Shown here piece after piece: positions 19,617-60,024 of a DNA stretch of 64,000 nt (position 1 is its first letter; each line of letters begins with the position of its first letter). The stretch covers positions 62,001 to 126,000 of the forward strand of contig NZ_JOJM01000012.1 of the NCBI RefSeq assembly GCF_000720325.1. Direction: 5' to 3'. A model generated the notes under the pieces. That model saw only the letters and a list, made by a program, of their open reading frames with translations. It had not been told where the DNA came from and did no database searches. A program made the translations under genes and the position numbers. This DNA is from Streptomyces sp. NRRL B-1347 (GTDB lineage: Bacteria; Actinomycetota; Actinomycetes; Streptomycetales; Streptomycetaceae).

Positions 19617-19682
19617 TTGATGCCCCGTCAGGGGAACACGGCGACGAGCCGTTCTCGATCGAGTCACCGAGGAAGGAAAGCC

Positions 19683-21147: not shown

Positions 21148-21152
21148 GGACG

Positions 21153-21174
21153 GGCCCACCTCTTCAGGTGGGCC
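21153..21174 (-). promoter_or_regulatory. Leader hairpin in front of argB
   Basis: GGCCCACCT and AGGTGGGCC form a perfect 9-base-pair stem around a 4-base loop. It lies between the iron box and the argB start, and its AGGTGG arm is the only binding-site-like sequence for ATG 21147. It could modulate translation or simply be an early terminator. Confidence 0.55.
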
Positions 21175-21188
21175 GATCAAGATTGCGT

Positions 21189-21207
21189 TTAGCTTAGCCT
21201 AACCTAA
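21189..21207 (-). promoter_or_regulatory. Iron box upstream of argB
   Basis: Read on the minus strand the site is TTAGGTTAGGCTAAGCTAA, matching the consensus at all but one position, the best box in the window. It lies 42 bases before the argB ATG and makes iron repression of this kinase very likely. Confidence 0.88.
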
Positions 21208-21708: not shown

Positions 21709-21727
21709 CAAGGTAAGGCTAACCTTA
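21709..21727 (+). promoter_or_regulatory. Iron box upstream of cchB
   Basis: CAAGGTAAGGCTAACCTTA matches the consensus at about 15 of 19 positions with a perfectly kept centre (AGGCTAACCT). It lies about 35-40 bases before the probable start of the monooxygenase. Confidence 0.75.
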
Positions 21728-21763
21728 TCTAACATGTGCCTGCTTAAGGAGGCGATGAAGCGG

Positions 21764-36388: not shown

Positions 36389-36477
36389 TTCGCCACCTTC
36401 GCCCCCCTTGAGTTCCCACACGAGGCGGTCCCGGCCGCGCTCGACGCTACCGGCGGCGCGGTAGGCGTGCTCGGGCT

Positions 36478-36493
36478 GTGGCGAATTGGCCAC
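36478..36493. promoter_or_regulatory. Palindrome in divergent promoter region
   Basis: GTGGCGAATTGGCCAC has GTGGC/GCCAC arms around a six-base centre. It lies between the divergent ATPase and phosphatase genes and could be an operator for either. Confidence 0.35.
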
Positions 36494-36579
36494 GGACCGT
36501 CATCGAAGCTGGCACAGTACCCCGCACGCAGGGGTCGCGCGCGGAAAACCGAACTTCACCGGACGACCAGGGGGACGCA

Positions 36580-42050: not shown

Positions 42051-43550
42051 GTGAACGGACAACCCAACACCCGCCTTTCGGACCTCTTCGGCCTCGCCGG
42101 CTGGTCCAAGGGCGAACTCGCCAGACTGGTGAACCGGCAGGCGGCCGCGATGGGTCATCCGCAGCTGGCCACCGACACCTCGCGGGTGCGGCGCTGGATC
42201 GACATGGGAGAGATCCCGCGCGATCCCGTGCCGCGGGTCCTGGCGGTCCTCTTCACCGAGCGTCTCGGCCGTGTCGTGACCATCGAGGACCTCGGTCTGG
42301 TCCGGCACGGGCGCGTAGGCAAACAGCGCGCCGACGGGAGCGTGGAGCACCCGGACGGCGTGCCGTGGGCGCCCGAGCGAACCGCCGCGGTCCTCACCGA
42401 ATTCACGGGAATGGACCTCATGCTCAACCGACGCGGCTTGGTGGGCGCGGGTGCCGCGCTCGCCGCCGGCTCCGCACTCAGCAGCGCCATGCACGACTGG
42501 CTGCACACCGATCCGACCCTGAAGGCCGACGCCCCCCGTCTCGACGATCCCCTGCACGCCGACCCCGCCGGGTTCGACCGCTATGAGGCCGCCCCCATCG
42601 GCTCTCAGGAGATCGAGGAACTGGAGCGCTCGGTCGAGGTGTTCCGCGCCTGGGACGCCTCCCGTGGCGGGGGGCTCCAGCGCAAGGCCGTGGTGGGCCA
42701 GTTGAACGAGGTGGGCGGCATGCTCGCCTACCGGCACCCCGACCACCTCCAGCGACGCCTGTGGGGCGTCGCCGCCAACCTCGCCGTCCTCGCCGGGTGG
42801 ATGTCCCACGACGTCGGCCTCGAACCCACCGCCCAGAAGTACTTCGTGATCGCCGCGCACGCGGCCCGCGAGGGCGGCGACCGGCCGCGCGCAGGGGAGG
42901 CCCTGTCCCGCGCCGCGCGCCAGATGGTGCACCTGGGCAAGCCGGACGACGCCCTGGACCTGATGAAGCTCGCCAAGTCCGGCTCGGGCGAGCAGACGCA
43001 GCCGCGCACCCAGGCCATGCTGCACACCATCGAGGCCTGGGCGCAGGCGTCCATGGGCAAGGGCCAGGCGATGCGGCGCACGCTCGGCCGGGCCGAGGAC
43101 CTGTTCGTCTCCGACAAGGGCGACGTGCCGCCGCCCAGCTGGATGCAGATGTTCGACGAGGCGGACCTGCACGGCATGCAGGCGCTCGCCTACCGCACGC
43201 TCGCGGACCACGACCCGTCCGCCGCGCACGTCGCCCAGCGCCACGCCAAGGAGGCCATCGCCCTGCGCACCAAGGGCCGTGACCGCTCCACGATCTTCGA
43301 CTACATCTCGCTGGCGTCGGCCTGCTTCATCGCCGACGACCCCGAACAGGCCGACCGGTACGCCCGGCTCGCACTGGTGTCGATGGGCTCGAACTCCTCG
43401 CACCGCACGTGGGACCGGCTACGGGAGATGTACCGGCTGACCGCCCAGTACGCGGGCTACCCGAAGATCGAGGACCTGCGCGAGGAGATCAAGCACGCCC
43501 TCCCCAAGGCCGCGGGCAGGCCGGGAGGAGGAAAATGGGCACGAGCGTGA
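42051..43550 (+). CDS. NsdA-like regulator with TPR-type repeats
   Basis: A 499-residue protein of the streptomycete family that includes NsdA, a negative regulator of differentiation and antibiotic production. The N-terminus is a helix-turn-helix-like region (GWSKGELARLVNRQAAAMG, DTSRVRRWIDMGEIPRDPVPRVLAVLFTERLG). A hydrophobic segment (LVGAGAALAAGSALSSAM) follows near residue 130. The rest is helical repeats (ANLAVLAGWMSHDVGLEPTAQKYFVIAAHAA). Several paralogues exist per genome and I cannot tell which this is. GTG 42051 follows CTGGGGG. Confidence 0.85.
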   Translation: MNGQPNTRLSDLFGLAGWSKGELARLVNRQAAAMGHPQLATDTSRVRRWIDMGEIPRDPVPRVLAVLFTERLGRVVTIEDLGLVRHGRVGKQRADGSVEHPDGVPWAPERTAAVLTEFTGMDLMLNRRGLVGAGAALAAGSALSSAMHDWLHTDPTLKADAPRLDDPLHADPAGFDRYEAAPIGSQEIEELERSVEVFRAWDASRGGGLQRKAVVGQLNEVGGMLAYRHPDHLQRRLWGVAANLAVLAGWMSHDVGLEPTAQKYFVIAAHAAREGGDRPRAGEALSRAARQMVHLGKPDDALDLMKLAKSGSGEQTQPRTQAMLHTIEAWAQASMGKGQAMRRTLGRAEDLFVSDKGDVPPPSWMQMFDEADLHGMQALAYRTLADHDPSAAHVAQRHAKEAIALRTKGRDRSTIFDYISLASACFIADDPEQADRYARLALVSMGSNSSHRTWDRLREMYRLTAQYAGYPKIEDLREEIKHALPKAAGRPGGGKWARA

Positions 43551-45480: not shown

Positions 45481-48400
45481 ATGGATACGGCCCACGACGT
45501 GCTCCGCATACTGCTCACCGGTGAACCCGGGTTCGGCCGGGACGCGGCCCGGCCCGAGCACCCGCTCGTCGCCGGCGCGCGGGCCCTCGCGGCGGGCGAG
45601 CCCCGGCGGGCCCTGCGCCGCCTCGCGGACGTGCGCGAGCCGGGCGCCGCCGACGACATGGCCGCCGCGCTGCGCGTGGCGGCACACGCCCTCGACCTGA
45701 ACTGGTACCCGGGCGGCGGGGGCGCGGTGCTCGCCGAAGGCGACGCGGAGCGGCTCGCGGCGGGGCCGCCCCGGAAGGCCGCCCCCGACGCGGCCCTGGT
45801 GGAGTTCTGCGCCGCCCGCTTCCTGCCCCGGCTCCTCGCCGCCCGCGGCATCGTCGAGAACGCCAGGACCAGCGGCGACCACTGGGCCATCGCACACGTG
45901 CTGCGAGACACGGAACGGCAGGCGAACGACGTGCCGGGCGCGGACGCCGCGCTGGTGCGCTGGGTGCGGGCGCACGTCCACCTCGCGGCCGCCGACGTGG
46001 CCCGGCGCGCGGGCCGCGACGCCGACGTCCTGGCCGCCCTCGACCGGTGCAGGCACGACGCGCACGGCGACCCCTGGGTGCTCGCCCGGGTCTACCTCCT
46101 CCAGGGCGACGCGGCCCTGACGCCCTGTTCCCACCCCGACCTCCTGGGCCTGCGGCTCGGCCCGGCGGCGGCCGCCGAACCGGGCACCGCCCCCGAGGAC
46201 ATCCCCGTCGACCCGGCCATGGCCCGCGCCCACTACGAGGCGGCCGACGCCCTCTACGCGCGCCTGCCCGCCCCGCGCGGCCGCGCCCGCGTCGCCCTGC
46301 GCCTGGCCCACCTGGCCCGCACGCGCGGCGACGGGCCCGCACGGGCGCGCGCGGGCGAGCGGGCCGCCGCCCTGGCCGACCGCGCGGGCGCGGGCTCCCT
46401 CGCCGCGCTCGCCACCGCGCACCGGCTGCTCGACGGGCTCGCCGACGGCTCCGACGCCGACCGCCGCGACCTCGACGGACTCGCGCGCTGGGGCCGCGAC
46501 GACGGCAGCTCCAGCTATCTGAAGGGCCTGGTCCGGCTCCTGCTCGCACGGGCCGCTGCCTGGCAGCGGGAGGGGCTGACCCTGGCCGCCCTGCGCTGCC
46601 TGCGGGCCGCCCGCTTCGTCACGGCCCGGATCACCGCCCCCCTGGAGGCGGACCTCACGGACCGCGCGTACGTCGACCTCGTCGACCGGCTGAACTTCCG
46701 GCAGGCCTCGACCGTGCTCCTGGCCGCCGACACCGCGCACGCCACGGCCGCGCTGCGGGCACGGGACGCCGACGAACGCAGCTGGCTGCGCGCCGCCGAA
46801 CTCGCCCTGGCGCTCGACCGGGCCGTGGAGGCGCTCGCCGACCCGGACCTGAAGGGCGTCGCCCAGGCACGGCTCGGCGAGGTGGCCGCCGCTGCCGAAC
46901 GCCTCGCCGGCTCCTGGCCGCCCGCCCGGCAGGCCATCGACATCGTGCGGGAGAGCCTGCGGCGCGCCCCCGCCCAACTGCTGCGCCACCGGGGCCGCCG
47001 GGCCCTGGAGGCCGGTTTCCGCGACGAGGCCCACGCCGTGCTCCGGGCGGCGCTCGACCGCGCCGGGGACGACGCCCTCCTGCGGACGGCCCTCCTGTAC
47101 GAACTCGGCCAGCGGCAGCAGGCCCACGCCCTCGCGTCCCGCCTGTTCCGGCGCGGCGGCCTGCACCCCGACCACGCCGTCAGCCTCTTCCTGCGCCTCG
47201 GCGACCCGCACACCGCGCGCCACGCCCTCGGCGTACTCGACGAGACGTCCTGGAGCGGCGACCCCGACCGCCCCTGGGAGGACCTGGCGCGCCGCGCCGA
47301 GCTCGCCGCGGCCCTCGGCGACCACGCCACCGCCGCCCGGGTCGGCGGGGACGCGGTGACCCGCTTCGAGCAGTGGTCGGACCAGCTCGTACGGGACGTC
47401 CTGCGCACCTCGATGACCGACGACGTGACCGTCGCGGCGATGTACCACATCGCGGCCCGCGCGCACCTCTGCCGGGCCGACGAAGCCCGGAAGCCACCGG
47501 CCGACCGGACCGCCGAAGCCCCGCACGACACCGTCGACCCTGACGCCGAACGCGCCCTCGCCTTCGAACTCTCCGACCGCTGCCGCGGCATCGCCGTCGA
47601 CGTCCTGCGCGCCCTCGACGACCTGCCGCCGGGGCCGCCGCTCGACGCCGCCCGCCGCTGGCTGCGCGCCGGTTCGGCCTGGGCCGCCGCCTACGAAGGG
47701 CTCGCGGACAGCGTGACCGGCGACGCCGCGCACACCCCGCCCGCCGCACGCCTGCGCGCCACCGTGCTCGCCGCCGAGGACGAGCTGGAGGCCGCCGAGA
47801 CCCACGTGGCCACGCACGCGCCCGGCCTGCTGCGCGGCCGCGCCGACGAGGAGCGGCGGATCCGGGGCACCCGCCTTGACGCGGTGCGCGCCGCCCTGCC
47901 CGACGACGCGCTGCTCCTGATGTACGAGACGTTCGACGACGACCTGGTGACCTGGGCGGTCGACCGGCACGGCGCCCGCCACAGCCGCAGGACCGTGCAC
48001 CACCGCGATCTCGCCTGTGCCGTCCGGCGGTTCCACTCCGCGTGCGCGAGCGGCCACCACGACACCGCCGACGCGATCGCCCTGGCACGTCTGCTCCTCG
48101 ACCCCGTCGCGGACGCCGTGCGCGGCCGGCGCCGCCTGTACGTGGTGCCGCACCGGGCGCTCACCCTCGTGCCGTTCGCCGTCCTGCCCGTCGGCGATGT
48201 GCCGCTGGGGGAGCGGTGCGTGATCTCCCAGCTGCCCTCGGCGTCCCTCATCACCCGGCCCGGCTGCGGCCGCCCACCGGGCCGCGGCGCGCCCGCGCTG
48301 CTCGTCGGCGACCCCGCGTACGCGCCCGGCCGGGGCCTCGCCCGACTGCCCGGGACGGCGACGGAAGTGCGGGCCATCGCCCGGCTGCTCGGCACCGAAC

Positions 48401-48984
48401 CGCTGCTCGGCGCCGCCGCGACGGCCGCCGCCGTCACCGCCTCCGCGCCCGGCCGCGCCGTACTGCACCTGGCCACCCACGGCGTCCTGCACGAGCGCGG
48501 CCCGCACCGCAGCCACGTGGCGCTCGCCGGGCACGACCGGCTGACCGTCGGGGACGTCACCGGGCTCGATCTGACCGCCGACCTCGTCGTGCTCTCCGCC
48601 TGCCACACCGGGCGCGGCACGGCCACCGCAGGAGGAGACGTCATCGGCCTGGTCCGCGCCGCCGTCGCGGCGGGCGCGCGGCACGCGGTGGTGTCGCTGT
48701 GGCCCGTCGACGACGCCTCCGGAGCCGTCCTCATGACGTACTTCTACGAAGCGCTGCTCGCCCGCCCCGGCACCCCGGTGGCCGACGCCCTCACGACGGC
48801 GCAGCGCCGCCTGCGCGCCCTGGACGCCGACGGGCGCGCCACGGCGTACGAGCGGCTGCGCGAGGCCACCGGCGGCGGCGCCGCGGCCGACTGCGCACGC
48901 GACGGCCGCCCGCCCACGGCCCTCACCCGGCACACGTCCCCGCCGCCCTACCACTGGGCTCCGTTCATCCACATCGGCGGCTGA
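45481..48984 (+). CDS. Large CHAT-domain clan CD protease with helical repeats
   Basis: A 1167-residue protein. Residues 1-850 are Ala/Arg/Leu-rich helical repeats of TPR type. The last 290 residues form a CHAT domain, a caspase relative: FVVPHRALTLVPF-type entry (LYVVPHRALTLVPFAVLP), catalytic His1000 in HLATHG and catalytic Cys1041 in VVLSACHTGRG, then VVSLWPVDD. Both catalytic residues are present, so it should be an active Arg/Lys- or Asp-specific endopeptidase. ATG 45481 follows GGGGGGAAG. The caspase gene follows by 103 bases. CHAT proteins act as effectors in CRISPR-guided (TPR-CHAT/Craspase) and other bacterial conflict systems. Confidence 0.92.
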   Translation: MDTAHDVLRILLTGEPGFGRDAARPEHPLVAGARALAAGEPRRALRRLADVREPGAADDMAAALRVAAHALDLNWYPGGGGAVLAEGDAERLAAGPPRKAAPDAALVEFCAARFLPRLLAARGIVENARTSGDHWAIAHVLRDTERQANDVPGADAALVRWVRAHVHLAAADVARRAGRDADVLAALDRCRHDAHGDPWVLARVYLLQGDAALTPCSHPDLLGLRLGPAAAAEPGTAPEDIPVDPAMARAHYEAADALYARLPAPRGRARVALRLAHLARTRGDGPARARAGERAAALADRAGAGSLAALATAHRLLDGLADGSDADRRDLDGLARWGRDDGSSSYLKGLVRLLLARAAAWQREGLTLAALRCLRAARFVTARITAPLEADLTDRAYVDLVDRLNFRQASTVLLAADTAHATAALRARDADERSWLRAAELALALDRAVEALADPDLKGVAQARLGEVAAAAERLAGSWPPARQAIDIVRESLRRAPAQLLRHRGRRALEAGFRDEAHAVLRAALDRAGDDALLRTALLYELGQRQQAHALASRLFRRGGLHPDHAVSLFLRLGDPHTARHALGVLDETSWSGDPDRPWEDLARRAELAAALGDHATAARVGGDAVTRFEQWSDQLVRDVLRTSMTDDVTVAAMYHIAARAHLCRADEARKPPADRTAEAPHDTVDPDAERALAFELSDRCRGIAVDVLRALDDLPPGPPLDAARRWLRAGSAWAAAYEGLADSVTGDAAHTPPAARLRATVLAAEDELEAAETHVATHAPGLLRGRADEERRIRGTRLDAVRAALPDDALLLMYETFDDDLVTWAVDRHGARHSRRTVHHRDLACAVRRFHSACASGHHDTADAIALARLLLDPVADAVRGRRRLYVVPHRALTLVPFAVLPVGDVPLGERCVISQLPSASLITRPGCGRPPGRGAPALLVGDPAYAPGRGLARLPGTATEVRAIARLLGTEPLLGAAATAAAVTASAPGRAVLHLATHGVLHERGPHRSHVALAGHDRLTVGDVTGLDLTADLVVLSACHTGRGTATAGGDVIGLVRAAVAAGARHAVVSLWPVDDASGAVLMTYFYEALLARPGTPVADALTTAQRRLRALDADGRATAYERLREATGGGAAADCARDGRPPTALTRHTSPPPYHWAPFIHIGG

Positions 48985-49046
48985 CGCCGTGCCGCGGACG
49001 CAGGGGTGACCGGGGTGGGCCGCCGTGCCATCCTGGCGGCTACGGC

Positions 49047-49090
49047 GCGCGTCATGGGGGCTGCGATGCGCGTCACGGGGGGCTGCGATG
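49047..49090 (+). repeat. Tandem duplication of the caspase translation-start region
   Basis: A 22-23-base unit (gcgcgtca, then a G-run, then gctgcgatg) occurs at 49047-49068 and 49068-49090. Each copy holds a G-rich binding site and an ATG, at 49066 and 49088. Confidence 0.75.
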
Positions 49091-49095
49091 CGTAA
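49066..49095 (+). CDS. Nine-codon upstream frame overlapping the caspase start
   Basis: ATG 49066, preceded by GGGGG, reads MRVTGGCDA and stops at TAA 49093-49095, seven bases past the caspase ATG. Ribosomes ending there could restart on the caspase gene or be kept off it. Translation of this frame is an inference only. Confidence 0.35.
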   Translation: MRVTGGCDA

Positions 49096-51025
49096 ACGGG
49101 CACTGCTTATCGGCTGTCGGACCGGAGTGCTGCGTGGCGTGGACGCCGATGTCGCGCTGATGGCGGACGTCCTCGCCCCCCTCGGCTTCGAGGTGACCCG
49201 GGCCACCGGGCCGCGCGCGACGCGGCGGGGACTCATCGAGGCCTACCGCGCGCTCATCGACGCCACCGGAGCCGGGGACGCGGCCGTCGTCTACTACTCG
49301 GGCCACGGCGGCCAGGCGCGCGACCCCCGCCCCGCGCCCGCTCCCGGGCAGCCGGCGCGCATCCAGTACCTGTGCCCCACCGACATCGACGAGCCCGGCA
49401 CGCCCGGCGCGTTCCCGGGCCTGTTCGCCGACGAGCTGAGCCTGCTCCAGGACGAGTTGAGCGCCCGCACCGCGAACGTCACGACCATCATCGACAGCTG
49501 CCACTCCGCCCGCATGGCCCGCACCGCCCGGCAGGTGCCCAAGGCCCGCACGGAGGGCCGCGACTGGGCGACGGTGCACGCGGCCTGGCGGACGGCGGTG
49601 GGCGCGGCCCCGCGCCGCGCGGGCCGCCCCGCTGCCGAGTCGAACCCGTCCGTCGTCCGCCTGGTGGCCTGTGAACCCGACGCCAGCGCCTACGAAGTCC
49701 AGCTCCCCGGCTTCGACGGCCCGCGCGGCCTGCTCACCGCGAGCCTCGCCCGGCTCCTGCGCGCCCCCGGCGCCCATCGGCTGACCTGGCGCACCCTGCT
49801 GGGGCTGCTGCGGCCCGCCGTCCTCGACGTCGTCCCCTTCCAGCGCCCGGAGGTCGAAGGGCCCGCCGACCGGCTCCTGTTCGACACCGCGGAGCAGCGC
49901 GCCACCGGCGTGCTGCCGGTGTCGGCCGACCGGTACGGGGCGTATCTGGACGGCGCGGAGCTGTTCGGCGTGGCCGTGGGCGATCAGTACGCGCTGGTGC
50001 CCCCGGGCGGCGACCCGCGGCGGCCGCTCGCCACCGCCGTCGTCGACCGCGCGGAGGCCGGGACCGCCCGACTGCGCCTCCAGGGCGGAGCGGCGCACGA
50101 ACCGCCCCCGGAAATCCCTCCTCCGGGCACCGAGGCGCATCCCCTGCACGTCTCCTTGGGCCGCCGTCCCGTCCTCCTGCACCCCGCTGACCACCCCGAC
50201 CACGCGCGCGTGGCCGCGCGTCTGCGGGCCTGCGCCCACCTGCGGATCGCCCGGAGCGACGAACCCGCCCTGGCCGTCGTCGGCCTGACCCCCGACGGCC
50301 TGCGCCTGGCCGACGCCGACGGCGAGCCGCTGCGCGCCGCCGCGAGCCCGGCCACGGACACCGGGCTCGACTCCCTCACCCAGGACCTCCAACAGCTCGC
50401 CAGGGCCGCCCACGTCCGCGCCCTGGCCTCCGGCACCGGTCCGGCCGCGCTCCCCGACGACGTGACCTTCCACTACGCGCTGCTGTGCGCGGACGGCACA
50501 CAACAGCCCCTGGACCGCAGCGGCGCACACGTCTTCCACGGCGACGAGATCGTCGTCCACCTCCACAACCGGGCCGCCGAACGCCGGCACGTGTCCGTGT
50601 TCGACGTCGGACTGCGCGGCGCCGTCACCCAGCTCACCACCACCGAGCCCGCGGGCGTCGGCCTGGCCCCGGACGCCCGCTACGAACTGTTCCGCCTTCC
50701 CGGCAGCCACCGGCTCGCGGGCATCGAACTGTACTGGCCCGACGGCCTGCCCCGCGGCGTGCCACGGCCCGAGACGCTCGTCGCCGTCGTCACCGACCGC
50801 CCGCAGGACCTGACGCGGCTCGCCCAGCGGGGCATCGCCCGGCGCGGGCCCGGCGGTTCGGCCCTCCAACGCCTGGTCGACGACGTCGTCACCGGCGTGC
50901 GCGACGCCCGGGCGCCCGGGGCCGCGGAGCCACCGGTGCGCTACCGCGTCGCGCGCTGCGACGTCCTCCTCCACCACGGGCGCCGCTCCGGCCCACCCGA
51001 CCACGCCCCGCACGCCGGGAGGTAA
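49088..51025 (+). CDS. Caspase-family (C14) protease with C-terminal DUF4384-like region
   Basis: A 645-residue bacterial caspase. The N-terminus shows the fold's first strand (KRALLIGCRTG). Catalytic His73 is in VVYYSGHGG and catalytic Cys138 in TIIDSCHSARM. The domain ends near residue 250. The C-terminal 170 residues (HVFHGDEIVVHLHNRAAERRHV, then VSVFDVG) resemble the beta-sandwich found after many bacterial caspases (DUF4384-like). ATG 49088 has GGGGGG upstream; an overlapping nine-codon frame precedes it. The PP2C-like gene follows by two bases. Confidence 0.93.
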   Translation: MRKRALLIGCRTGVLRGVDADVALMADVLAPLGFEVTRATGPRATRRGLIEAYRALIDATGAGDAAVVYYSGHGGQARDPRPAPAPGQPARIQYLCPTDIDEPGTPGAFPGLFADELSLLQDELSARTANVTTIIDSCHSARMARTARQVPKARTEGRDWATVHAAWRTAVGAAPRRAGRPAAESNPSVVRLVACEPDASAYEVQLPGFDGPRGLLTASLARLLRAPGAHRLTWRTLLGLLRPAVLDVVPFQRPEVEGPADRLLFDTAEQRATGVLPVSADRYGAYLDGAELFGVAVGDQYALVPPGGDPRRPLATAVVDRAEAGTARLRLQGGAAHEPPPEIPPPGTEAHPLHVSLGRRPVLLHPADHPDHARVAARLRACAHLRIARSDEPALAVVGLTPDGLRLADADGEPLRAAASPATDTGLDSLTQDLQQLARAAHVRALASGTGPAALPDDVTFHYALLCADGTQQPLDRSGAHVFHGDEIVVHLHNRAAERRHVSVFDVGLRGAVTQLTTTEPAGVGLAPDARYELFRLPGSHRLAGIELYWPDGLPRGVPRPETLVAVVTDRPQDLTRLAQRGIARRGPGGSALQRLVDDVVTGVRDARAPGAAEPPVRYRVARCDVLLHHGRRSGPPDHAPHAGR

Positions 51026-51027
51026 CC

Positions 51028-51558
51028 GTGCCCTACCAGCAGCGCATCGACCGGCGGCGGCCCGGCACGGTCGCGCCCGTCGTCGGCGCCGACGGCCGCG
51101 ACCCGCTCGTCGGCGACGAGGTGCTCGCGGTGCCCAAGTCGGCCACGGAACCGAGCGAGCACGCCGCCGCCCTCGACCCGGCGCGCGGCCGGGTCGCGGT
51201 CTCCGACGGCGCGACCCGCGCCCTGGCCTCCGGGCCCTGGGCGCACTGCCTCGTCCGCAGGTTCGTGGCGCGGCCCCCCGACGGCTTCGGCGCCGCCGCG
51301 CTCGGCGACTGGGACCGAGCGGCCGCCGAGGAGTGGGCGCCGTGCGTACGCCTGTCCCCGCAGGCACCTCCGTACCTCTGGGACGCCCTCGCCCGCTGGG
51401 CCCTGACACAGGCCGCACACGGCCCGCACGCCTGGCACTTCCTGCGACGGTGCGACCCGGGCGAATTCACGACGGAGGTACGGGCGCTGTGGCGACGGGG
51501 CGAACTGGAGCAGGACGACGTGACCTTGGTGCGCTGCCGCGTCGACCGGGTGCCGTGA
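51028..51558 (+). CDS. Shortened PP2C-like protein, probably without phosphatase activity
   Basis: A 176-residue protein with two pieces of a PP2C-like phosphatase: the first metal-binding strand VAVSDGATRALASGPWAHCLV (residues 52-72) and the last one, RGELEQDDVTLVRCRV, at the end. The central part that would hold the GDS motif and the second Asp cluster is absent, so residue 115 onwards jumps to the last helix. It may be an in-frame deletion derivative or a binding-only version. GTG 51028 has GGGAGG upstream and lies two bases after the caspase stop, so the two are coupled. Confidence 0.7.
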   Translation: MPYQQRIDRRRPGTVAPVVGADGRDPLVGDEVLAVPKSATEPSEHAAALDPARGRVAVSDGATRALASGPWAHCLVRRFVARPPDGFGAAALGDWDRAAAEEWAPCVRLSPQAPPYLWDALARWALTQAAHGPHAWHFLRRCDPGEFTTEVRALWRRGELEQDDVTLVRCRVDRVP

Positions 51559-51568
51559 GGTCTCGTAC

Positions 51569-51584
51569 GTCCCGAGCGCGGGAC
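51569..51584. terminator. Small hairpin between convergent operons
   Basis: GTCCCG-AGCG-CGGGAC gives a six-base-pair stem in the 60-base gap between the PP2C-like and kinase-like genes. It is too weak to be certain as a terminator. Confidence 0.45.
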
Positions 51585-51618
51585 CGGCTCGTACGGCCGT
51601 GCCTGAAGGTTCGCACGG

Positions 51619-52444
51619 TCACCGGTGCAGCGCCGCCACCAGATCCTCCGGAGAGCCCGTCCGGCCGCGGGCGCGGGCGCAGTCGGCGGCACGGAAGATC
51701 AGGTTCTCCTGGGTGTGCAGCTTCCACAGGCTCGGGTCCGCGGCCACGGCCAGCGCCGACAGGAAGACGACGGAGGCAGGGAAGGCGTCCAGGCGGACCC
51801 CGTGCAGCTCGCCGTCCTCCTCGGGATGGCGGTAGTCGGGGTGACCGGCGTCGGCGCGCGGCCAGTCCTGCCCGCTCGGCACCCACACCCCGTCCAGGGT
51901 CGACCAGCTGGAGCCGCAGCTCGTCGTCCACCAGGACGTTGCCCTGCTGGAGGTCGCCGTGCCCGAGCCCGGCGCGGGCCAACTGGCGCAGCGCCACTCG
52001 CCAGTTCGCGGCCAGGTGCCGCAGGGCGCGCGGCTCGCCCGGGCGCCGGGACAGCGCGATGTCGAGGGTGTCTCCGGGCACCCACGGCTTCAGGACCACC
52101 GGCCACCACGCGCCGCCCACCTGGATGCCCCGCTCCAGCCAGGTCGCCGGGGTCAGCGCCGGGCAGGCGCGGCCCTGGAGACAGCGGCGCAGCGCGTCGT
52201 AGCGCAGGGCGCCCGCGGCGGGTGGCCGCGTCATGCAGCGCACCGCGCAGGCGCCGCGCGGCCCGAGCAGCCGGAACACCACCGCGTTCCGTCCGGAGCT
52301 GGTGCGCGGCATGCCGAGCCGGTTGAGGTCGAGCACGCCGCCCGCGAGGTCCGGTTCGGCGAACGCCGTGGCCGGGTCCTGCACCGCCTCCGCGTACTCG
52401 GTCTTCGTCGGCCAGCGCGCCGGGCGGCCCGGCGTGCCGCTCAT
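51619..52444 (-). pseudogene. Protein kinase-like gene broken by a one-base frameshift
   Basis: From ATG 52444 the frame encodes a eukaryote-like kinase fold: AVVFRLLGPRGACAVRCMT (ATP-binding region), the catalytic loop GLGHGDLQQGNVLV and the metal-binding strand RLQLVD. Immediately after LVD the frame changes. The expected continuation LDGVWVPSGQDWPRADAG lies in the next frame and runs to the stop at 51619. Removing one G from the GGG at 51897-51899 (plus strand) joins both parts into a 274-residue protein. This is either a recent inactivation, a sequencing error in a short run, or rarely a programmed shift. Confidence 0.8.
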
Positions 52445-52475
52445 GCCGCGCCGCCCAGGCGTCCGACGGGCCGCC

Positions 52476-53804
52476 TCATGCCCTGTACACCACCCGGCCG
52501 GGCAGCTCCCTGCCGTCGACGCGGGCCCACAGCCGAAGCCCGGCGAGCACCTGGCCCCTGCGCCCGCCCGCGTCCAGGGGGATGTCGTTGCCGCCGGTGC
52601 GGCGGCGGGCCTCGCGATACGTCGGGGCGAGGACCTGCACGGCGACGTCGGCGCCGCTGTCCCGCACCCGGCGCCGCAGTTCAAGGACCATCCGCTGGGA
52701 CGCCTCGGCGACCCCCGCCCACCAGCTGCCGGGCGCGGCCGGAGGCAGATGAAGCACCGAGCACAGCGCCTCGTCCACCGCGAGCGCGGCTCGCAGCTCC
52801 TCCGGAGAGCCCGGCGGCTGCCGGGCCAGGCGCCCGATCCGCTGGGCGAGCTCAAGGCGGTAGGCGTCGCGGTGCTCGGTGTCGCCCAGCGGGACCACGC
52901 CCCGGTGCACGACGCCCTCCAGACAGTGGTGCAACTGGCCGTCCAGCGAGGCGAGTCCGGTCACCCAACCGGCGAGGACGACACAGACGGCCAGCGGCGA
53001 CCGCAGATGACGCGCGGTCGCGCCGTGGTCGCCGCCCGCGGCGGTCACCGCCCAGTCCGCCAGGGCCCCTGCCGCACCGAGGCGCACCCCGGTGACGCCC
53101 GCACGGGGCAGCGGCGGCAGGAGGACCTCGACGCCGTCGAGCGCCTGCCACTCGTCCCACCGCTCCTCGGTCGCGACCCGCGCCGCCACCGCGAGGCGCT
53201 CCGCCCGCGCGCGCCACCGCGTCGCGTACGCGTGCGGCAGACGCAGCAGCGTCAACTGGAACCAGCACCACAGCGCGGCCGTCCCGTCGGCCTCAGGCAC
53301 GGCCAGCGGGCCAAGGAAGGTGGCGCACTCCTGGCTCCGCGTCAGCTCCGCGGCCAGCGCGGCCAGCTCGGGGTCGGCGACGGGGGAGGGCCGCCCGGGC
53401 GGCTGCGCGGGCACGGGCTCCGGGGGCACGGGCTCCGGGGGCACGGGCTCTGGGGGCACCGGCGTGACCGGCTCCCGCACGACCGGCTCCCGCGTGGCCG
53501 GTACGGACGTGCCCATCGGCGGGGTGCTCTCATCGGCTGCGGATCCGGCCGCCTCGGAGGCGGCGGGGGGCGTGCCGGACTCCGTCCCCGGCTCCGTCCC
53601 CGGCGCTGTCTCCGGCGGCGCGCCGCCCGGTGCCAGCGCCGCCGCCACCTCCGCGAGCGCCGCCCGGCACTCGGTCGCGCCCGCGTCGTCGGGCAGCGCC
53701 TCCAGGGCCACGCCCAACGCGGACCGCAGCCCCTCCAGATGGGCGCGCGCCAGCGCCGCGAGGTGCGAGTCCGGCAGCCGGCTGAGCCTGCGCAGCGCGT
53801 CCAC
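52476..53804 (-). CDS. Unknown protein with proline-rich linker (SrfA position)
   Basis: A 442-residue protein I do not recognise. A short helical N-terminal part (residues 1-60) is joined by an Ala/Gly/Thr/Pro-rich linker with PPEPV repeats (about 105-135) to a helical domain starting AELTRSQECATFLGPLA. That domain contains WCWFQLTLLRLPHAYATRW and LHHCLEGVVHRGVVPLGDTEHRD. GTG 53804 starts five bases after the Hsp70-like stop, so it is co-translated. In proteobacterial srfABC operons a protein of similar size (SrfA) accompanies SrfB and SrfC; this could be a functional counterpart, but I see no sequence proof. Confidence 0.7.
   Translation of the reverse strand: MDALRRLSRLPDSHLAALARAHLEGLRSALGVALEALPDDAGATECRAALAEVAAALAPGGAPPETAPGTEPGTESGTPPAASEAAGSAADESTPPMGTSVPATREPVVREPVTPVPPEPVPPEPVPPEPVPAQPPGRPSPVADPELAALAAELTRSQECATFLGPLAVPEADGTAALWCWFQLTLLRLPHAYATRWRARAERLAVAARVATEERWDEWQALDGVEVLLPPLPRAGVTGVRLGAAGALADWAVTAAGGDHGATARHLRSPLAVCVVLAGWVTGLASLDGQLHHCLEGVVHRGVVPLGDTEHRDAYRLELAQRIGRLARQPPGSPEELRAALAVDEALCSVLHLPPAAPGSWWAGVAEASQRMVLELRRRVRDSGADVAVQVLAPTYREARRRTGGNDIPLDAGGRRGQVLAGLRLWARVDGRELPGRVVYRA
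53411..53460. repeat. 15-base tandem repeat encoding PPEPV
   Basis: Three nearly identical units (GGGCACGGGCTCCGG type) in the plus strand encode the repeated Pro-Pro-Glu-Pro-Val linker of the gene on the minus strand. Copy number could vary between strains. Confidence 0.75.
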
Positions 53805-53809
53805 GGCGG

Positions 53810-56800
53810 TCAGTGCCCGCCGTTGAACGGATCGCGCTCGGCGATGTACGAGGCCTTCGTGTCGCTCATGTCCACCCGGAACACCGAACCCGGCGCGCCC
53901 CACATCCCGGCGAGCGAGTCGGCCCGCCAGTACGGCACCGGCTCCCGGTGCACCCGCAGCAGCCCCTGCTCGTCGAGCGTGGCCACATACGTCACTCCTT
54001 GCTCGGCCTCCACGCTTTCCGTGCCGTACGCCGGCTCCGTGCCGCTCCGCTCGGGCACGGACACGACGCCGAGCAGGTCCCACTTCCGGTCGGGCTCGCC
54101 GGGATAGCGCAGGTAGAACGACCAGCCGTCGTGCGGCGGCGAGCCGATCGGCCCGCTCGTCATGCCCCGCACCGCCCGCGCGTTCGGCCCCGCGCCCCGC
54201 ACCCGGAACACCTCGTTGAAGCGCGGCGCCTCGGCCGCCGCCGCGGCGGGGCGGCGCGGGTCCTGCGGCAGGCTGAAGACGACCACGCCCGTGTCCGGCC
54301 GGTCCCCCGCCACCCGGTTGTCGGCGACGATCTCGATCGGCACCCACTGGCCGCCGGGGCCGCCGCCGAGGTCGATCTGGACCGGGGCCGGGCCGTCCAC
54401 CTCGTACTGCGGCGCGCCGCGCGCGAGGTGCACCGCCAGGTCGAGATCGGCGTTCACCTCCACCTGGAACTGCGCCTCCCGTGTCCACTGCGCCATGTTC
54501 AGCGTGAAGCCGGGCTCTTCGAGGCGGACCCAGGCGTCCGGGTCGAAGGCGCCCCACTCCTTCCAGCCGGTGCCGATGTTGCGGTGGATGCGCAGACTCG
54601 CGGGCAGGCTCTGCCACTTGCTGCGCACCGCCCAGGTGCCGCCGGGGCCGATGGGACTCAGCCGCGCGCCGACCCTCAGCAGGGCGTGCGTGGGGTCGTT
54701 GGCCGCCAGCTGGTACGTCGGCCCGAAGTCGCACGGCAGGTAGTAGCTGAGGTTGTCCACCTCGATGCGCAGCACGTAGCGGCCGCGGCCCAGGACGCCC
54801 TGGGCGTTGCGCACGGTGTGCGCGAACCGGCGGACGTGGTGGCCCCAGCAGGCCCCGATGGACGTCGCCTTCTTGCCGTACTCCTCCTCCACGGCGACGC
54901 CCGCGGGGTTCCACCGCACCTCGCTCTCCTGGCGCAGCCGCCGCTCCAGGGTGTGCCGCACCAGCGGCATCCGGCTGCTCTTGCCGGTGAGGAAGGTCCG
55001 GTCGAGCTCGCTGGCCGTCACGATGTTCTTCGTGAGGGCGACCACGAGATCCATGATCTCCTTGAGGTCCGGCGCGAGGAGTTCCGCGAACGTCGCGGCG
55101 TCGAGCACCGGCGTCCACGCCGCGGGCGCGCCCGCCGCCCCGAGCCGTCCCAGGAGCACCTCAAGCGTCTCCGGCAGCGGCTGATACGCGGACTCGCCCG
55201 CGCCGAGCCGGAACTTGGCGTCCTCGGCGAGCTCCCACAGCAGCCAGAACGTCTGCTCCGCGTCCTCCCGGGACGCGGTGACCACGGTGTCGGCGCTCCA
55301 GCGCGTCGGCACCACGCGGTCCACCAGATCCGCCGGATACCCCTCGATCTCCGGGTCGCGGTCGAGCAGGGTGCGCGGCACATAGCGGCCGTCGACGGCG
55401 TACGGGTCCTTCAGCGAGCCCACGACGTGCTCGAACCGCTCCGGCTGACCGGTGAGCAGATGGTCGGCGAAGGCCGCCTTGTACCAGCGGAAGAGCCGCA
55501 GCGTCATCAGGTCGCCGCCCAGCTGGAGGTGCCCGGTGGAGCCGAGCAGCGTGGGCGTGAGGACGTACAGGCGGCCGGTGAAGCGGGGGTCCTGGCCCGG
55601 CACCGGGTCGGGCGTCGCGTCCTTGAGGCGCAGATTGATCAGGGCGAGGTCCGTGGTGCCGCCGCCGATGTCGATGACCAGGACGTTCTGCTGCCAGGCA
55701 CGGTCCGTGCCGGGCAGCGGGCGGCAGCGTGCCCGGAACGCCTCGACACCGGCGACGAAGTCGCCGCCGAAGTCCCGCATGATGAAGAAGAGCGCGGCCG
55801 CCACCGCCTCGTCGAACTGGGTGTCCACCAGCGTGACGCCGAGCCCGTCGCCCGCCCCGCCGGCCCCCGCGCCGACCAGCTCCCGCAGCCTGCGGCGCAC
55901 CCCGGGCGGCGCCACCGTCGGGTACGTCATGACGACGTGGTCGAGCCGGCCCTGGTGGAATTCCTTGGGGTTGGCGGCGAGGTATTCGTCGGCCTGGTCG
56001 AGCAGATAGCGCAGGCCCTCGCGGATCAGGTCGTCGGCTGTGAACGGCGCCAGGCCCGGCATCTCGTGGTCGCGGCCCAGGTACTGCTTGACCCCGCGGT
56101 ACGACTGGGCCCCGCCCATGGGCAGTCCGCCCACCGGGATCCGCTCCTGGCCCATCCGCACCCGCAGCTCCGGGCTCGTGGCGACCACCTCGATGCGGCT
56201 GGCGAGCTCCGTGCCGCCCGCCTGGTCGAGGTCGACGGAGAACAGCCGGAGCACGTCCAGCGGCAGCTCGTCGAAGGCCCGGTGGTAGCACCGGTGCAGC
56301 AGCGGAGTCGCCGCCCGGCGCAGCTGTTCGTCCCGGGAGGCGATCCGCAGTTCGAGCGCGGTGTACAGCGCGTGCACCCAGCCGTCGCCGCCGTACCCGC
56401 TCTCCAGGGCGTCCGCGAGCGCCTGCCCGCCGCCCGCCTCGGTGCGCGGGGCGTCGCCGTCCGTGAGGTACTGCCGCGCGACGTCGGTGAGCAGCTCGCG
56501 CCACTGTGCCCGCTCGCCCGCGCACGCGTCCGGATTGGCGAGCAGCTGCCTGAGCTCCTTGCGCAGCCGCCCCTCCTGGTACCGCGACATGGCGCGCACG
56601 TCGAGCTGGCGCATGTCGTGGACGGTGACCGTGGAGTTCGTCGTGCCGAAGTCCACCGCGGCGAAGCCGAAGTGGCGCACGGCGCCCTCTGGGACCCGGC
56701 GTACTCCAGGGCGGCCGGGTGCGGCAGCGGTGGGCTCGGCGGCCGCGGCCGCCCGGGGCGCGTCGCGGGAAGCGCTGGGCGGGGCGGACGCGTGGGCGCG

Positions 56801-57358
56801 CCCGGTGGGCCCGCCGGCCGGGGTCCGCGACCACAGATTGGCGTCGTACCACTGTCCGGAGCCGGAGCTGGAACTCGGCGTCGGAGCGGACTGGAAGGTC
56901 GGTGGGACTGGTGGGACCGGCGGGACCGGTGGAGCCATGGCCATGTCCAGACGCAGTGTGGTGGAGACCTCGGTCGTGGCGTGGATGGTGCCGACGGGGC
57001 GCCCCGTGACCGGGTTGAGTTCGTGGTGCGTGAAGCGGACGACCAGCGGTAGCACGGTCTGGTCGAGGCGCTCGGCCAACGCCACGGCACCGCGCGCCCG
57101 CACGGTCGTCGGCGCCCTGACCACCTGGCCCTCCACGGAGCGGAACGCGCCGTCGAGCGCGGTGCCGTCGAGCACGGGAAGGGCCGGGTCCGTGCGCAGC
57201 ACCTCGGCCTTGCTGACGATGACACCGCCGCCGGTCGGCCGCAGCTCCACGTCGGGCAGCTGGACCGCCGACAGCGGGCCGAGCAGGGTGAATCCGCCGC
57301 CGTGGGCGTCCGCCACACAGGACGGCCCCGAGGTTACGAAACGGGCGTGCAGTCCCAT
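53810..57358 (-). CDS. Large SrfB-like Hsp70/actin-fold ATPase
   Basis: A 1182-residue protein. Residues 1-150 are a separate beta-rich domain. A Pro/Ala/Ser linker (PPVPPVPPVPP) runs to about 230. The actin/Hsp70 ATPase follows: phosphate-1 AAVDFGTTNSTV (about 235), phosphate-2 VLVIDIGGGTTDLAL (about 561) and the adenosine motif TFLTGKSSRMPLV (about 789). The rest is beta-rich, without a normal DnaK substrate domain. Size and pairing with a dynamin-like GTPase resemble SrfB next to SrfC in enterobacteria. ATG 57358 starts 14 bases after the GTPase stop; the unknown gene follows by five bases. Confidence 0.88.
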   Translation of the reverse strand: MGLHARFVTSGPSCVADAHGGGFTLLGPLSAVQLPDVELRPTGGGVIVSKAEVLRTDPALPVLDGTALDGAFRSVEGQVVRAPTTVRARGAVALAERLDQTVLPLVVRFTHHELNPVTGRPVGTIHATTEVSTTLRLDMAMAPPVPPVPPVPPTFQSAPTPSSSSGSGQWYDANLWSRTPAGGPTGRAHASAPPSASRDAPRAAAAAEPTAAAPGRPGVRRVPEGAVRHFGFAAVDFGTTNSTVTVHDMRQLDVRAMSRYQEGRLRKELRQLLANPDACAGERAQWRELLTDVARQYLTDGDAPRTEAGGGQALADALESGYGGDGWVHALYTALELRIASRDEQLRRAATPLLHRCYHRAFDELPLDVLRLFSVDLDQAGGTELASRIEVVATSPELRVRMGQERIPVGGLPMGGAQSYRGVKQYLGRDHEMPGLAPFTADDLIREGLRYLLDQADEYLAANPKEFHQGRLDHVVMTYPTVAPPGVRRRLRELVGAGAGGAGDGLGVTLVDTQFDEAVAAALFFIMRDFGGDFVAGVEAFRARCRPLPGTDRAWQQNVLVIDIGGGTTDLALINLRLKDATPDPVPGQDPRFTGRLYVLTPTLLGSTGHLQLGGDLMTLRLFRWYKAAFADHLLTGQPERFEHVVGSLKDPYAVDGRYVPRTLLDRDPEIEGYPADLVDRVVPTRWSADTVVTASREDAEQTFWLLWELAEDAKFRLGAGESAYQPLPETLEVLLGRLGAAGAPAAWTPVLDAATFAELLAPDLKEIMDLVVALTKNIVTASELDRTFLTGKSSRMPLVRHTLERRLRQESEVRWNPAGVAVEEEYGKKATSIGACWGHHVRRFAHTVRNAQGVLGRGRYVLRIEVDNLSYYLPCDFGPTYQLAANDPTHALLRVGARLSPIGPGGTWAVRSKWQSLPASLRIHRNIGTGWKEWGAFDPDAWVRLEEPGFTLNMAQWTREAQFQVEVNADLDLAVHLARGAPQYEVDGPAPVQIDLGGGPGGQWVPIEIVADNRVAGDRPDTGVVVFSLPQDPRRPAAAAAEAPRFNEVFRVRGAGPNARAVRGMTSGPIGSPPHDGWSFYLRYPGEPDRKWDLLGVVSVPERSGTEPAYGTESVEAEQGVTYVATLDEQGLLRVHREPVPYWRADSLAGMWGAPGSVFRVDMSDTKASYIAERDPFNGGH

Positions 57359-57372
57359 GGCGTCTCCGTGGG

Positions 57373-60024
57373 TCAGGCCTTGCGCGGGGCGGTGGGCGGC
57401 GTGGCGAGGCTCTTGACGGTGGACGTCCGCGTACCGCGGGCCGCGCCGGGGTGCGCGGACGGCCGGGGCAGCGGCATCGCTTCCAGGCGCGCGGCCAGGT
57501 CGAGGGGTGCGGCGCCCTGGGCCGCGCCGTCGGCCCGAAGGCCGGACAGGAGCAGCTCGGGCGTGTCGGTGGCGTTCACGAACCGCTCGCCCTGTGCCAG
57601 GGCCTTGCCCGCCTGCCGCGCGAACTCCGCCTGATGGGCGGCCAGATGACCGTGCACCAGATCCACGAGGGCGGCGACCAGCTCGCGCCGCATCCGCACG
57701 ACGTGCGCGACGTGGCGCTCCAGCGGGTCACGGTCCTCGGGCTGGTCCGGATGCCAGGGGAAACAGCGGTCGAGGCGCAGCGGGAAGCTGGCGTCCACGT
57801 CCGCCGGATCCGGCTGCGGGGGCACCGTCTGCCGCAGCTCCGCGCGGTACCACTCCGGGTTGGTTGTGGCGATCAGCGCGCCGAGCCGGTCCCGGCGCGG
57901 CGGCGGCAGCGCGCCGCGCCGCAGCTCCTCCGCGGTGATCTCGATCCAGCCGCGGCGCAGGTCCTCAAGCGTGTCGGCGTGGTCGTCGAGACGCGCCTCG
58001 TACGCGGCCCGGATCCGGTCGTGGACGAGGGTGAGGAGCGCCTCGTGGGACGCCCGGAACGCCACCAGGAGCTCCTCGGGACCATCCGGAATGCCCGGCG
58101 CCGGATCGCTCTCCGCGGCGGCGGGCTCCTGTGTGAAGAGGCCGAGGAGCGCCAGCTCGTCCTGCACGTGCTGGGCGAAGTCCGCGTCGCCCTCGGTGGC
58201 GTGCGGCGCCACGACCAGGTGCCGCTCCCGGTCCACCGCCGCGAACAGCTCCTTCCACTGCGGCCACGCGGCGACCGCCGTCGCGGCCTCGTCGACCAGG
58301 TACCGGCGCAGCGCGTCGTCGCCGCGCGCCCCGTCCGTGGCCCGCTCCAGGACCAGCACCTCGCGCAGCGCGGCCAGCGCCTGCCGGGTGGCGTGCAGGG
58401 TCCGCTGGATCTCCTGGTACGCGGGCGGGTACTCCACTCCCGGGTGCGCCGAGCGCTCCGCGGTGATCAGCGCGAGCCGGGCCCGGTCCACCGCTCCGGC
58501 CCGGCGGCGCACCGCGCTGCTCTTGAGGGTGCCGCCGTGCTCCCGGGCGTGCCCGGTGAGTTCACCGCGCAGCAGCCGCAGCCCGCCGTCGTGGGCGTAC
58601 TCGCGCAGGGCCCGGATCAGCCCGCTGCCCGGGGCATCCGCTTCGAGCCGGTCGGCGACGCGCGCCCACAGGCCGGTCGGCACCGGTTGGCCGGTGCCGC
58701 TGCCCGCCTCGCGCACGTGGACGCGCGTCCCGTCCGCCCCCTCGCCGCCGAGGACGCCGGAGGCGCGCAGCGCGGCGAGACCCACCATGGGCGAAACCAG
58801 GATGAGCTGCTTGTGCTGCCCTGCGGGCAGCAGGGACTGCGAGGCCTCGACGATCGTGTCGAGTACCGCGGTGTCCGGCTGGCCCAGCAGCCGCCGCTCC
58901 GTCAGGCGCTCGTGCGCTCCCAGCAGCGCGGCCTCGAGCCCGGGCGCGTCATCGACCGGCAGCTGGTCGAAGCGGCCGCCCGCGACCAGGATGCTCTCCC
59001 GCAGCTCCTCGTCCGACCTGCGTTCCCGCCCATCCGCCGTGGGCTCGCGCAGCATGTCGAAGAAGTCCTGCTCACTGGCCACCGGCCCGCGCTGGGCGTT
59101 CATCAGGACCAGCACGGTGTGGATGTCACGCAGCTCGCGACGGCTCAGGAACCGGTCCCGCGCACCCGAGCTGGGGCTGTTCAGGCCGGGGAAGTCCATC
59201 AGCGTGAGCGCGCCCACGTCCCCCAGGTCCCACACGGCGCGCGGTATCCGCACCCGCAGCTCGATCTTCCTGATCAGCGGTACGCACGCGGTGAGCACGT
59301 CGTCCGGGATCCGGCCGCCCGGCGCCACCGTGCCGCGCCTGTCCCAGCCGCCGCCCTGCTGTTGCGGCACGTCGGGCAGGGACATGGCCTGCTTGGCCTG
59401 CGCGTCGGACAGGTCGTAGCGCCGTCCGAGCAGCGGCGCGCCCTCTTCGTAGGCGGCGTGCAGGAGCAGGGTCTCCTTGGCCACCGCGCTCATCTTGGAG
59501 CCCTGCGCGGAACGGCCGTACCGGCGGCACCAGTCGATCAGCGGCTGCCACCCCTCGGAGCCCGGCCGCGCCGTACGCAGCTCGCCGAGCTCCCGCTCGC
59601 CCAGCCCTTCCAGGCCCGCAAGCTCCTGGAGCCTGCCGTGCAGATGCGTCATGAGCTCGGCCGTCTCGGGCGCCGTGCAGTAGACGACCGCGCGCTCCTG
59701 CAGCGTCGGCCCCGGCTCGCCGTCGCCCGACTGGTCGATGCGGATGGCCGTCACGTTGCCCGTGGTCGGCACATGGCTCACCGACAGCAGGCCCGGCATC
59801 CCGAGCAGCGCCTCGATCAACAGCGACTTGCCCGCGCTGAACTCGCCGACCACACCGATCGACAGCGGATCACGCGCCTCCCCCAGGAGATGGGCGACGC
59901 CCGAACGGAACTCTCCCCGACGGGAGGCGAGTGCGGTCTCGTCCGGATCGTGCGCCGGAGCGCGCTCCAGGGCTTCGAGCATGCCGACCGCCCACTGCGC
60001 GTACAAGTCCGTGCTGGCGCCCAT
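57373..60024 (-). CDS. Dynamin-like GTPase (SrfC-like)
   Basis: An 883-residue large GTPase. The P-loop GEFSAGKS is at residues 60-67, the switch Thr is in HVPTTGNVTAI, and G3 is LMDFPGLNSPSSG near residue 275. The C-terminal 450 residues are long helices, as in bacterial dynamins and SrfC. Such proteins sense or remodel membranes and take part in phage defence and stress protection. ATG 60024 follows GGGGAGG and heads the operon GTPase, Hsp70-like, unknown, kinase-like. Confidence 0.9.
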   Translation of the reverse strand: MGASTDLYAQWAVGMLEALERAPAHDPDETALASRRGEFRSGVAHLLGEARDPLSIGVVGEFSAGKSLLIEALLGMPGLLSVSHVPTTGNVTAIRIDQSGDGEPGPTLQERAVVYCTAPETAELMTHLHGRLQELAGLEGLGERELGELRTARPGSEGWQPLIDWCRRYGRSAQGSKMSAVAKETLLLHAAYEEGAPLLGRRYDLSDAQAKQAMSLPDVPQQQGGGWDRRGTVAPGGRIPDDVLTACVPLIRKIELRVRIPRAVWDLGDVGALTLMDFPGLNSPSSGARDRFLSRRELRDIHTVLVLMNAQRGPVASEQDFFDMLREPTADGRERRSDEELRESILVAGGRFDQLPVDDAPGLEAALLGAHERLTERRLLGQPDTAVLDTIVEASQSLLPAGQHKQLILVSPMVGLAALRASGVLGGEGADGTRVHVREAGSGTGQPVPTGLWARVADRLEADAPGSGLIRALREYAHDGGLRLLRGELTGHAREHGGTLKSSAVRRRAGAVDRARLALITAERSAHPGVEYPPAYQEIQRTLHATRQALAALREVLVLERATDGARGDDALRRYLVDEAATAVAAWPQWKELFAAVDRERHLVVAPHATEGDADFAQHVQDELALLGLFTQEPAAAESDPAPGIPDGPEELLVAFRASHEALLTLVHDRIRAAYEARLDDHADTLEDLRRGWIEITAEELRRGALPPPRRDRLGALIATTNPEWYRAELRQTVPPQPDPADVDASFPLRLDRCFPWHPDQPEDRDPLERHVAHVVRMRRELVAALVDLVHGHLAAHQAEFARQAGKALAQGERFVNATDTPELLLSGLRADGAAQGAAPLDLAARLEAMPLPRPSAHPGAARGTRTSTVKSLATPPTAPRKA

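Follow-up and report, generated by a model that had tools for sequence, protein, structure and literature searches.

A Streptomyces locus combining a dynamin–Hsp70-like core with CHAT and caspase-like proteases: a candidate modular conflict system

The stretch of DNA analysed here, referred to as the window, comprises 64,000 nucleotides (nt) of Streptomyces sp. NRRL B-1347 (contig NZ_JOJM01000012.1, C12:62001-126000), and derives from a draft assembly of 10.2 Mb in 362 contigs. Genes within it were called by codon pattern and families assigned by Pfam. The locus of interest contains two gene groups that face each other, as a previous sequence-only reading had described: a CHAT protease and a caspase-like protease on the + strand, and a dynamin-superfamily GTPase, an Hsp70/SrfB-like ATPase and a third protein, designated LINK, on the − strand. 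The latter three are termed the core, and between the core and the proteases are the remains of genes of the TerY-P type. This gene set is described nowhere in the openly accessible literature searched. Other genomes are given by working label, with G000 being the window's own. The features are as follows, in amino acids (aa) where lengths are given.

45481-48984, + strand: CHAT protease with a long N-terminal region, 1167 aa (PF12770, E 4.6e-61; gene call with start)
49088-51025, + strand: caspase-like protease, 645 aa (PF00656, E 8.1e-17)
51022-51558, + strand: remnant of TerY (vWA) and PP2C genes (intact in the same place in G541; tblastn and blastn pieces; PADLOC PP2C, E 3.1e-11)
51619-51888, − strand: TerY-P-type kinase, second part, truncated and out of frame with the first (PADLOC STK_OB, E 4.9e-6; tblastn with residues 183-304 of the G541 kinase)
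51899-52444, − strand: TerY-P-type kinase (STK), first part (PADLOC STK_OB, E 1.3e-24; 91 % identity to residues 1-182 of the G541 kinase)
52476-53804, − strand: LINK, third core protein, 442 aa (invariant SWW at 360-362 and GR at 436-437)
53810-57358, − strand: Hsp70/SrfB-like actin-fold ATPase, 1182 aa (PF00012, 21.7 bits, cut-off 20.6)
57373-60024, − strand: dynamin-superfamily GTPase, 883 aa from ATG (PF00350, E 4.7e-10)

Both proteases retain the residues expected of their families, and these had been correctly named from the sequence: PF12770 together with the dyad His1000/Cys1041 places the first amongst CHAT peptidases, and PF00656 with His73/Cys138 places the second amongst caspases of type C14. 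Their counterparts in G541 are 93 and 86 % identical, respectively, and 114 proteins are listed as caspase homologues, including that of the window. The prediction of a dynamin-like GTPase likewise holds, as its P-loop, G2 and G3 residues are kept in an alignment of eight sequences, and its predicted model displays a dynamin fold near SynDLP, BDLP, mitofusin and IniA; by motifs and modelled fold it is thus assigned to the dynamin superfamily. For the ATPase, which had been called an SrfB-like Hsp70, the second half of the label is the firmer one. It exceeds the PF00012 cut-off, carries the motifs DFGTTNS at 236 and DIGGGTTD at 563 and has DnaK chains among its PDB matches, with a best E of 2.5e-9, but its score against SrfB (PF07520) is 24.6 bits, beneath the cut-off of 27.1. 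LINK, anticipated as an uncharacterised linker protein, indeed returned no match in a Pfam scan; 20 homologues are listed, its own sequence among them, it could be aligned with two cyanobacterial copies, and its AlphaFold2 model has a mean pLDDT of 78.9. The three − strand genes are separated by gaps of only 14 and 5 bases. An open reading frame (ORF) on the opposite strand (52233-54107, +, 624 aa, no Pfam match) was not accepted as a gene: it runs antisense to LINK and to parts of both its neighbours, the kinase start and the Hsp70-like 3' end, and the codon-position pattern across this region fits the − strand.

Searches for the core in other genomes used either a profile of the Hsp70-like protein or the LINK motif, and were therefore independent of the proteases. 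The genome draws overlap, and profile searches scored only the best few candidates per genome, such that a core could be missed in the counts that follow. Cores were found in 4/150 genomes of the genus by Hsp70-like profile and in 4/392 by LINK motif (the window's own being included in both), in 1 of 198 genomes across the phylum, again the window's own, and in two of a further draw of 80 (G377, and the already known G438). This gives eight core genomes in total: G000, G001, G042, G101, G377, G438, G540 and G541. All eight of these Streptomyces loci keep the three core genes side by side on one strand. Beyond the actinobacteria, the trio recurs with unchanged gene order in Fischerella muscicola, at 24, 30 and 26 % identity for dynamin, Hsp70-like protein and LINK, respectively, and Rhizonema has the Hsp70-like and LINK genes preceded by a short frame that resembles the tail of a dynamin gene. 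Among named homologues of the Hsp70-like protein, all those at 57 % identity or above belong to Streptomyces, with relatives in Micromonospora and Actinoplanes at 33-34 %. An alignment scan of genome contigs with this protein found at least 12 loci of the general Hsp70 type, and amongst the matches listed only two, both cyanobacterial, cover most of its length. The relative G541 has an Hsp70-like protein 88 % identical to that of the window, and by blastn it is the only one of the seven other core genomes to have the same flanks. Judged from these sequence comparisons, the core is both old and constant.

Protease genes recur beside the core. Seven of the eight loci offer enough context (the G001 contig stops 125 bases past the kinase), and in five of these a PF00656 caspase domain is found within 10 kb of the Hsp70-like gene, at distances of 4.0 (G000), 7.4 (G541), 5.3 (G438), 5.5 (G540) and 5.7 kb (G101). 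Against a background of 39 such domains in 20 genomes and 180.4 Mb, eight of these 20 being core genomes whose linked caspases are counted among the 39, the chance of a caspase domain within 10 kb is 0.43 % per locus. The corresponding probabilities, which assume evenly spread caspase genes and ignore defence islands, are 3e-11 for at least 5/7, 5e-9 without the window (4/6) and 1e-4 for lineages outside the window's clade (2/4, a lineage grouping of our own).

The arrangement of these neighbours differs from locus to locus. G438 and G540 each present five genes in one direction, dynamin, Hsp70-like, LINK, CHAT and caspase, whilst core and protease genes point towards each other in the window and G541, with four unrelated genes in between in G541. 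In G101 a different protease faces the core, an EACC1-caspase pair with NTPase-like and TPR matches. The convergent gene of G377 matches residues 291-997 of this G101 caspase/NTPase/TPR protein, but has no caspase part, and PF00656 is matched nowhere on that contig. The core contig of G042 also encodes a protein weakly similar to that of G101 (27 % identity over 284 aa), but at a distance of over 10 kb, and PF00656 finds no match in it. For strains PmtG, NPDC056486 and S.PB5, the longest contigs of the Hsp70-like and caspase clusters are equal in size, an indirect sign of linkage. Further genes occur near some cores. G438 holds a second operon (L024:586-6269, +) of a C39-like peptidase, GrpE, an uncharacterised protein, a LeoA-like dynamin (PADLOC LeoA, E 1.5e-19) and Hsp70; additional Hsp70 genes are present in G540 (L027:12144-13418, −; by sequence start) and G042 (L018:19035-19901, +). 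After the core, G042, G101 and G377 encode a protein with transmembrane and coiled-coil segments, which was considered as PP2C-like; hhalign comparison with two PP2C proteins and PADLOC lent this no support, and it was not used.

The CHAT and caspase genes regularly occur as a pair. A caspase profile found matches in 10/150 genomes, five of them strong (at least 530 bits: G000, G091, G085, G079 and G125), and in these five as well as in G541, G438 and G540 the CHAT gene is directly upstream of the caspase gene on the same strand (8/8). Between the window and G438 the Hsp70-like proteins are 62 % identical, whilst CHAT and caspase reach only 35 and 34 %; the same G438 proteases are 53 (CHAT) and 60 % (caspase) identical to the stand-alone pair of G091. 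In trees made with FastTree as the single method (supports 0.14-1.0), CHAT and caspase of G438 and G540 group with stand-alone pairs. For S.PB5 the two trees disagree: the Hsp70-like protein is sister to those of G438/G540, but the caspase falls with proteins from Kibdelosporangium and AC558. The simplest reading of these sequence relationships would be a constant core on which protease cassettes are exchanged as pairs.

The surroundings of the pairs show themes of their own. Divergent from the pair of G085 are genes for a weak vWA match, PP2C, a kinase-like protein and a further dynamin-like protein, and G079 has genes with starts similar to these; the vWA and PP2C proteins of G085 gave no match to the PADLOC TerY-P models. 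In G091, G085, G079 and G438 (L040:6441-8520; L041:11849-13973; L024:6701-8787) the pair is followed by a regulator, of Crp type by Pfam in G085, and by a protein of ~440 aa, for which Pfam has no match in G085; in G091 there is a further CHAT-like gene. Weaker caspase matches in G075, G122, G009 and G124 (L045:9564-14254; L046:5326-10038; L047:5349-10188; L048:5391-10236) are tail-to-tail with a CHAT-like gene, which a fifth, in G099, is not. In G125 (L043:12187-19900), the 9 kb downstream of the pair hold one more CHAT-like gene and one more caspase, together with a PP2C gene and a gene that is vWA-like by eye only and without a PADLOC match. The only other caspase domain in the window's own genome (G000:C12:30925-31608) is upstream on the same contig, outside the window and ~80 kb from the window caspase; G541 likewise has another, at 9435717, ~80 kb from its own.

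A third element is best seen in G541, where intact vWA and PP2C genes and a 305-aa kinase on the − strand are positioned between the two facing groups. These match the PADLOC models for TerY (E 1.3e-68), PP2C (E 5.9e-27) and STK_OB (E 1.6e-45), the kinase only across profile positions 3-280 of 562 and without the C-terminal OB part, and by these matches correspond to the TerY-P triad of TerY vWA, PP2C and STK. This triad is reported to be antiphage, with Anantharaman 2012 and Gao 2020 cited for it in PMC11090510. The TerY gene of G541 overlaps the caspase gene by 4 bases, and in G001 a kinase adjoins LINK (STK_OB, E 3.9e-48). In the window, little of this is left. What had been taken for a PP2C-like protein is a 176-aa ORF (51028-51558, +) made of the start of the vWA gene and two separated PP2C pieces, lacking residues 107-197 of the G541 PP2C protein; of the vWA gene itself, which had been overlooked altogether, only this start and one short further piece persist, so that neither an intact PP2C nor a TerY is present. 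The kinase-like gene was recognised as such, and its STK_OB matches bear this out, but a frameshift near 51888-51899 splits it in two, and part of its end has been lost. Relative to G541, stretches of 188, 589 and 277 bases are absent, and at the three junctions the flanking matches overlap by 12, 7 and 11 bases, which fits deletion between short repeats (i.e. real decay) and library or assembly error alike.

From this inventory, it is proposed that the locus represents a modular, nucleoside triphosphate (NTP)-gated two-protease conflict system of Streptomyces, of the cell death or abortive infection type, to which a probability of about 0.52 is given. This proposal builds on the gene families observed, their catalytic and P-loop residues, the modelled dynamin fold, the conserved linkage and the finding that related cores carry different cassettes. 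The core would sense, or assemble on, a trigger in an NTP-dependent fashion, probably at the membrane, and the resulting complex would then recruit, activate or license the CHAT and caspase cassette, with one of the two proteases probably activating or helping the other. The outcome would be a stop of growth, or death, of the cell or hyphal compartment. Where intact, TerY-P may serve as an optional third module that tunes the threshold by phosphorylation, and the protease cassette would have been swapped on the core during evolution. That phage might be the trigger is inferred from TerY-P and from the known roles of CHAT and caspase effectors. A similar scheme had been put forward by the sequence-only reading, in which GTPase and Hsp70-like protein respond to a trigger, kinase and phosphatase set the state and proteases carry out the response. 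It fits the parts found, and the triad of G541, but in the window this phosphorylation arm cannot set any state because kinase and PP2C are damaged, unless the damage is an assembly error.

Several points weigh against the proposed system. The window's own TerY-P arm is broken; the cores of G042 and G377 have no caspase domain within 10 kb; and four of the five genomes with strong caspases (G091, G085, G079 and G125) have no core match in the same set of 150. By gene calls, the gaps between LINK and CHAT measure 191 bases in G438 and 671 in G540, making a single transcript uncertain. The cyanobacterial core neighbourhoods are cut off by contig ends. No sign of mobility was seen: the Hsp70-like and dynamin proteins found 0 matches in 72,556 plasmid records, and a PHROGs search with four proteins returned 0 matches. 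CHAT and caspase families are cell-death effectors, and this role would carry over here by analogy. One fixed seven-gene system, as originally envisaged, is accordingly not what is found, since core and CHAT-caspase pair each occur apart. Co-occurrence of the gene families, the check suggested at that time, succeeds for the caspases near five of seven cores and for G438 and G540, and falls short for the pairs without a core and for G042 and G377, so that the outcome named as speaking against a joint system, operons mostly apart, is partly realised.

Pairs without a core, and cores without a nearby caspase domain, are what would be expected if CHAT-caspase, the dynamin-Hsp70-LINK core and TerY-P were separate conflict systems clustered by defence-island effects, sharing a place rather than a mechanism, as would the additional Hsp70/dynamin/GrpE operon next door in G438 and the four unrelated genes that part the two groups in G541. 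Set against this are G438 and G540, where the gene calls continue from LINK on the same strand directly to CHAT and caspase, the survival of the core-protease linkage across different arrangements, and the scarcity of caspase domains; separate systems are considered unlikely, albeit deserving of real weight. Less probable again is a machine serving hyphal development or the response to envelope stress, with dynamin and Hsp70-like protein remodelling membranes or septa, the proteases trimming their partners, and no role in phage defence. The fold relatives of the GTPase would suit such a function, as would the SpoIIE/PAS protein and Septum_form protein that flank the window copy. The patchy distribution of the core would be odd for a core developmental function, however, and the flanks are shared with G541 alone; moreover, the protease cassettes change, and the TerY-P module linked to them belongs to a type reported as antiphage. 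Lastly, an actinobacterial version of SrfABC, a three-gene operon described as a Xenorhabdus toxin, acting outside the cell, is very improbable: both sets pair a GTPase with an Hsp70-fold protein, and the Hsp70-like profile matches Erwinia SrfB by hhalign (95.5 % probability, E 1.5e-8, over 127 columns), but the GTPase has no match to SrfC (PF10139), the LINK profile matches one Erwinia SrfA with 0.2 % probability, and SrfABC of proteobacteria is described in the portion of PMC6950479 considered as three proteins, with no proteases mentioned there.

The two-protease conflict system thus remains the preferred reading, and it invites a broader, decidedly tentative one, in which doubt outweighs belief: that the dynamin-Hsp70-like-LINK core common to actinobacteria and cyanobacteria may be an undescribed NTP-driven, possibly membrane-based cell-death switch, inflammasome-like in its use of interchangeable CHAT and caspase cassettes and an optional TerY-P threshold. 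If true, this would join bacterial dynamins, Hsp70-type ATPases and caspase-like proteases, which are usually studied apart, provide a concrete set of genes through which to study cell-killing decisions in multicellular bacteria, and offer a comparison case for the mitofusin/dynamin and caspase pathways of animals. A constant core with changing proteases would also be a natural experiment on which surface of the core recruits them. The set is coherent and testable, its interest being limited by the broken arm in the window and by the independent life of the protease pair.

Elsewhere in the window is a siderophore-type cluster (5243-23113) with a 3678-aa non-ribosomal peptide synthetase bearing three AMP-binding stretches, an ABC transporter, an enterochelin-esterase-like protein and a lysine/ornithine N-oxygenase. 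At 34346-37650 an NB-ARC-like ATPase (27 bits, cut-off 23.5) is placed end to end with a SpoIIE-type phosphatase. A tRNA-Val call by ARAGORN (42704-42793, −) falls inside a well-supported long gene (42051-43550, +), and is probably false.

With regard to known systems, the nearest in design are the GTPase-centric conflict systems with HSP70 predicted by Kaur et al. 2020 (PMC7159879; DO-GTPase/GAP1-N2 themes), the portion of which considered here links HSP70 to only some of those GTPase systems, and also includes kinase, PP2C and vWA in one actinobacterial theme and a separate EACC1-caspase two-gene system. Shared with these, as far as that portion extends, are a GTPase with HSP70, variable effectors, a link to multicellular bacteria and a predicted regulated assembly; the terms dynamin, SrfB and CHAT are absent from the main text of the paper insofar as it was covered. 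The locus differs in that its GTPase matches Dynamin_N and has a modelled dynamin fold, its Hsp70-like protein is large and SrfB-like, and LINK has no GAP1 match. A linked HSP70 as in the DO-GTPase/GAP1 system is present by PF00012, though of the SrfB-like branch. In a Pfam scan at E 0.1, the GTPase matched Dynamin_N and MMR_HSR1 and no other family, and LINK had no match; Pfam presumably holds DO-GTPase and GAP1 models, and the one for EACC1 is present. The core is of the same kind of design as these systems; membership is not claimed because the GTPase matches dynamin models and no GAP1 match was seen. The EACC1-caspase system (PMC7159879, same portion) resembles the locus in its caspase effector, and G101 holds a true EACC1-caspase pair facing its core, but upstream of the window caspase is CHAT rather than EACC1, and with the NCBIfam EACC1-caspase model this protein reaches 25 bits where the cut-off is 140. 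TerY-P-like modules with an OB-fused kinase act as stand-alone antiphage systems according to part of the CoCoNuT paper (PMC11090510). All three G541 proteins match such a triad, unlike which the locus has a kinase without the C-terminal OB part and a triad split across two facing groups, and broken in the window. With SrfABC the locus has in common the distant SrfB relation and the GTPase neighbour. Finally, the predicted fold and GTPase motifs liken the GTPase to the bacterial dynamins SynDLP, BDLP, IniA and LeoA, from which it is set apart by its conserved neighbourhood of an Hsp70-like ATPase and LINK, often in the company of proteases.

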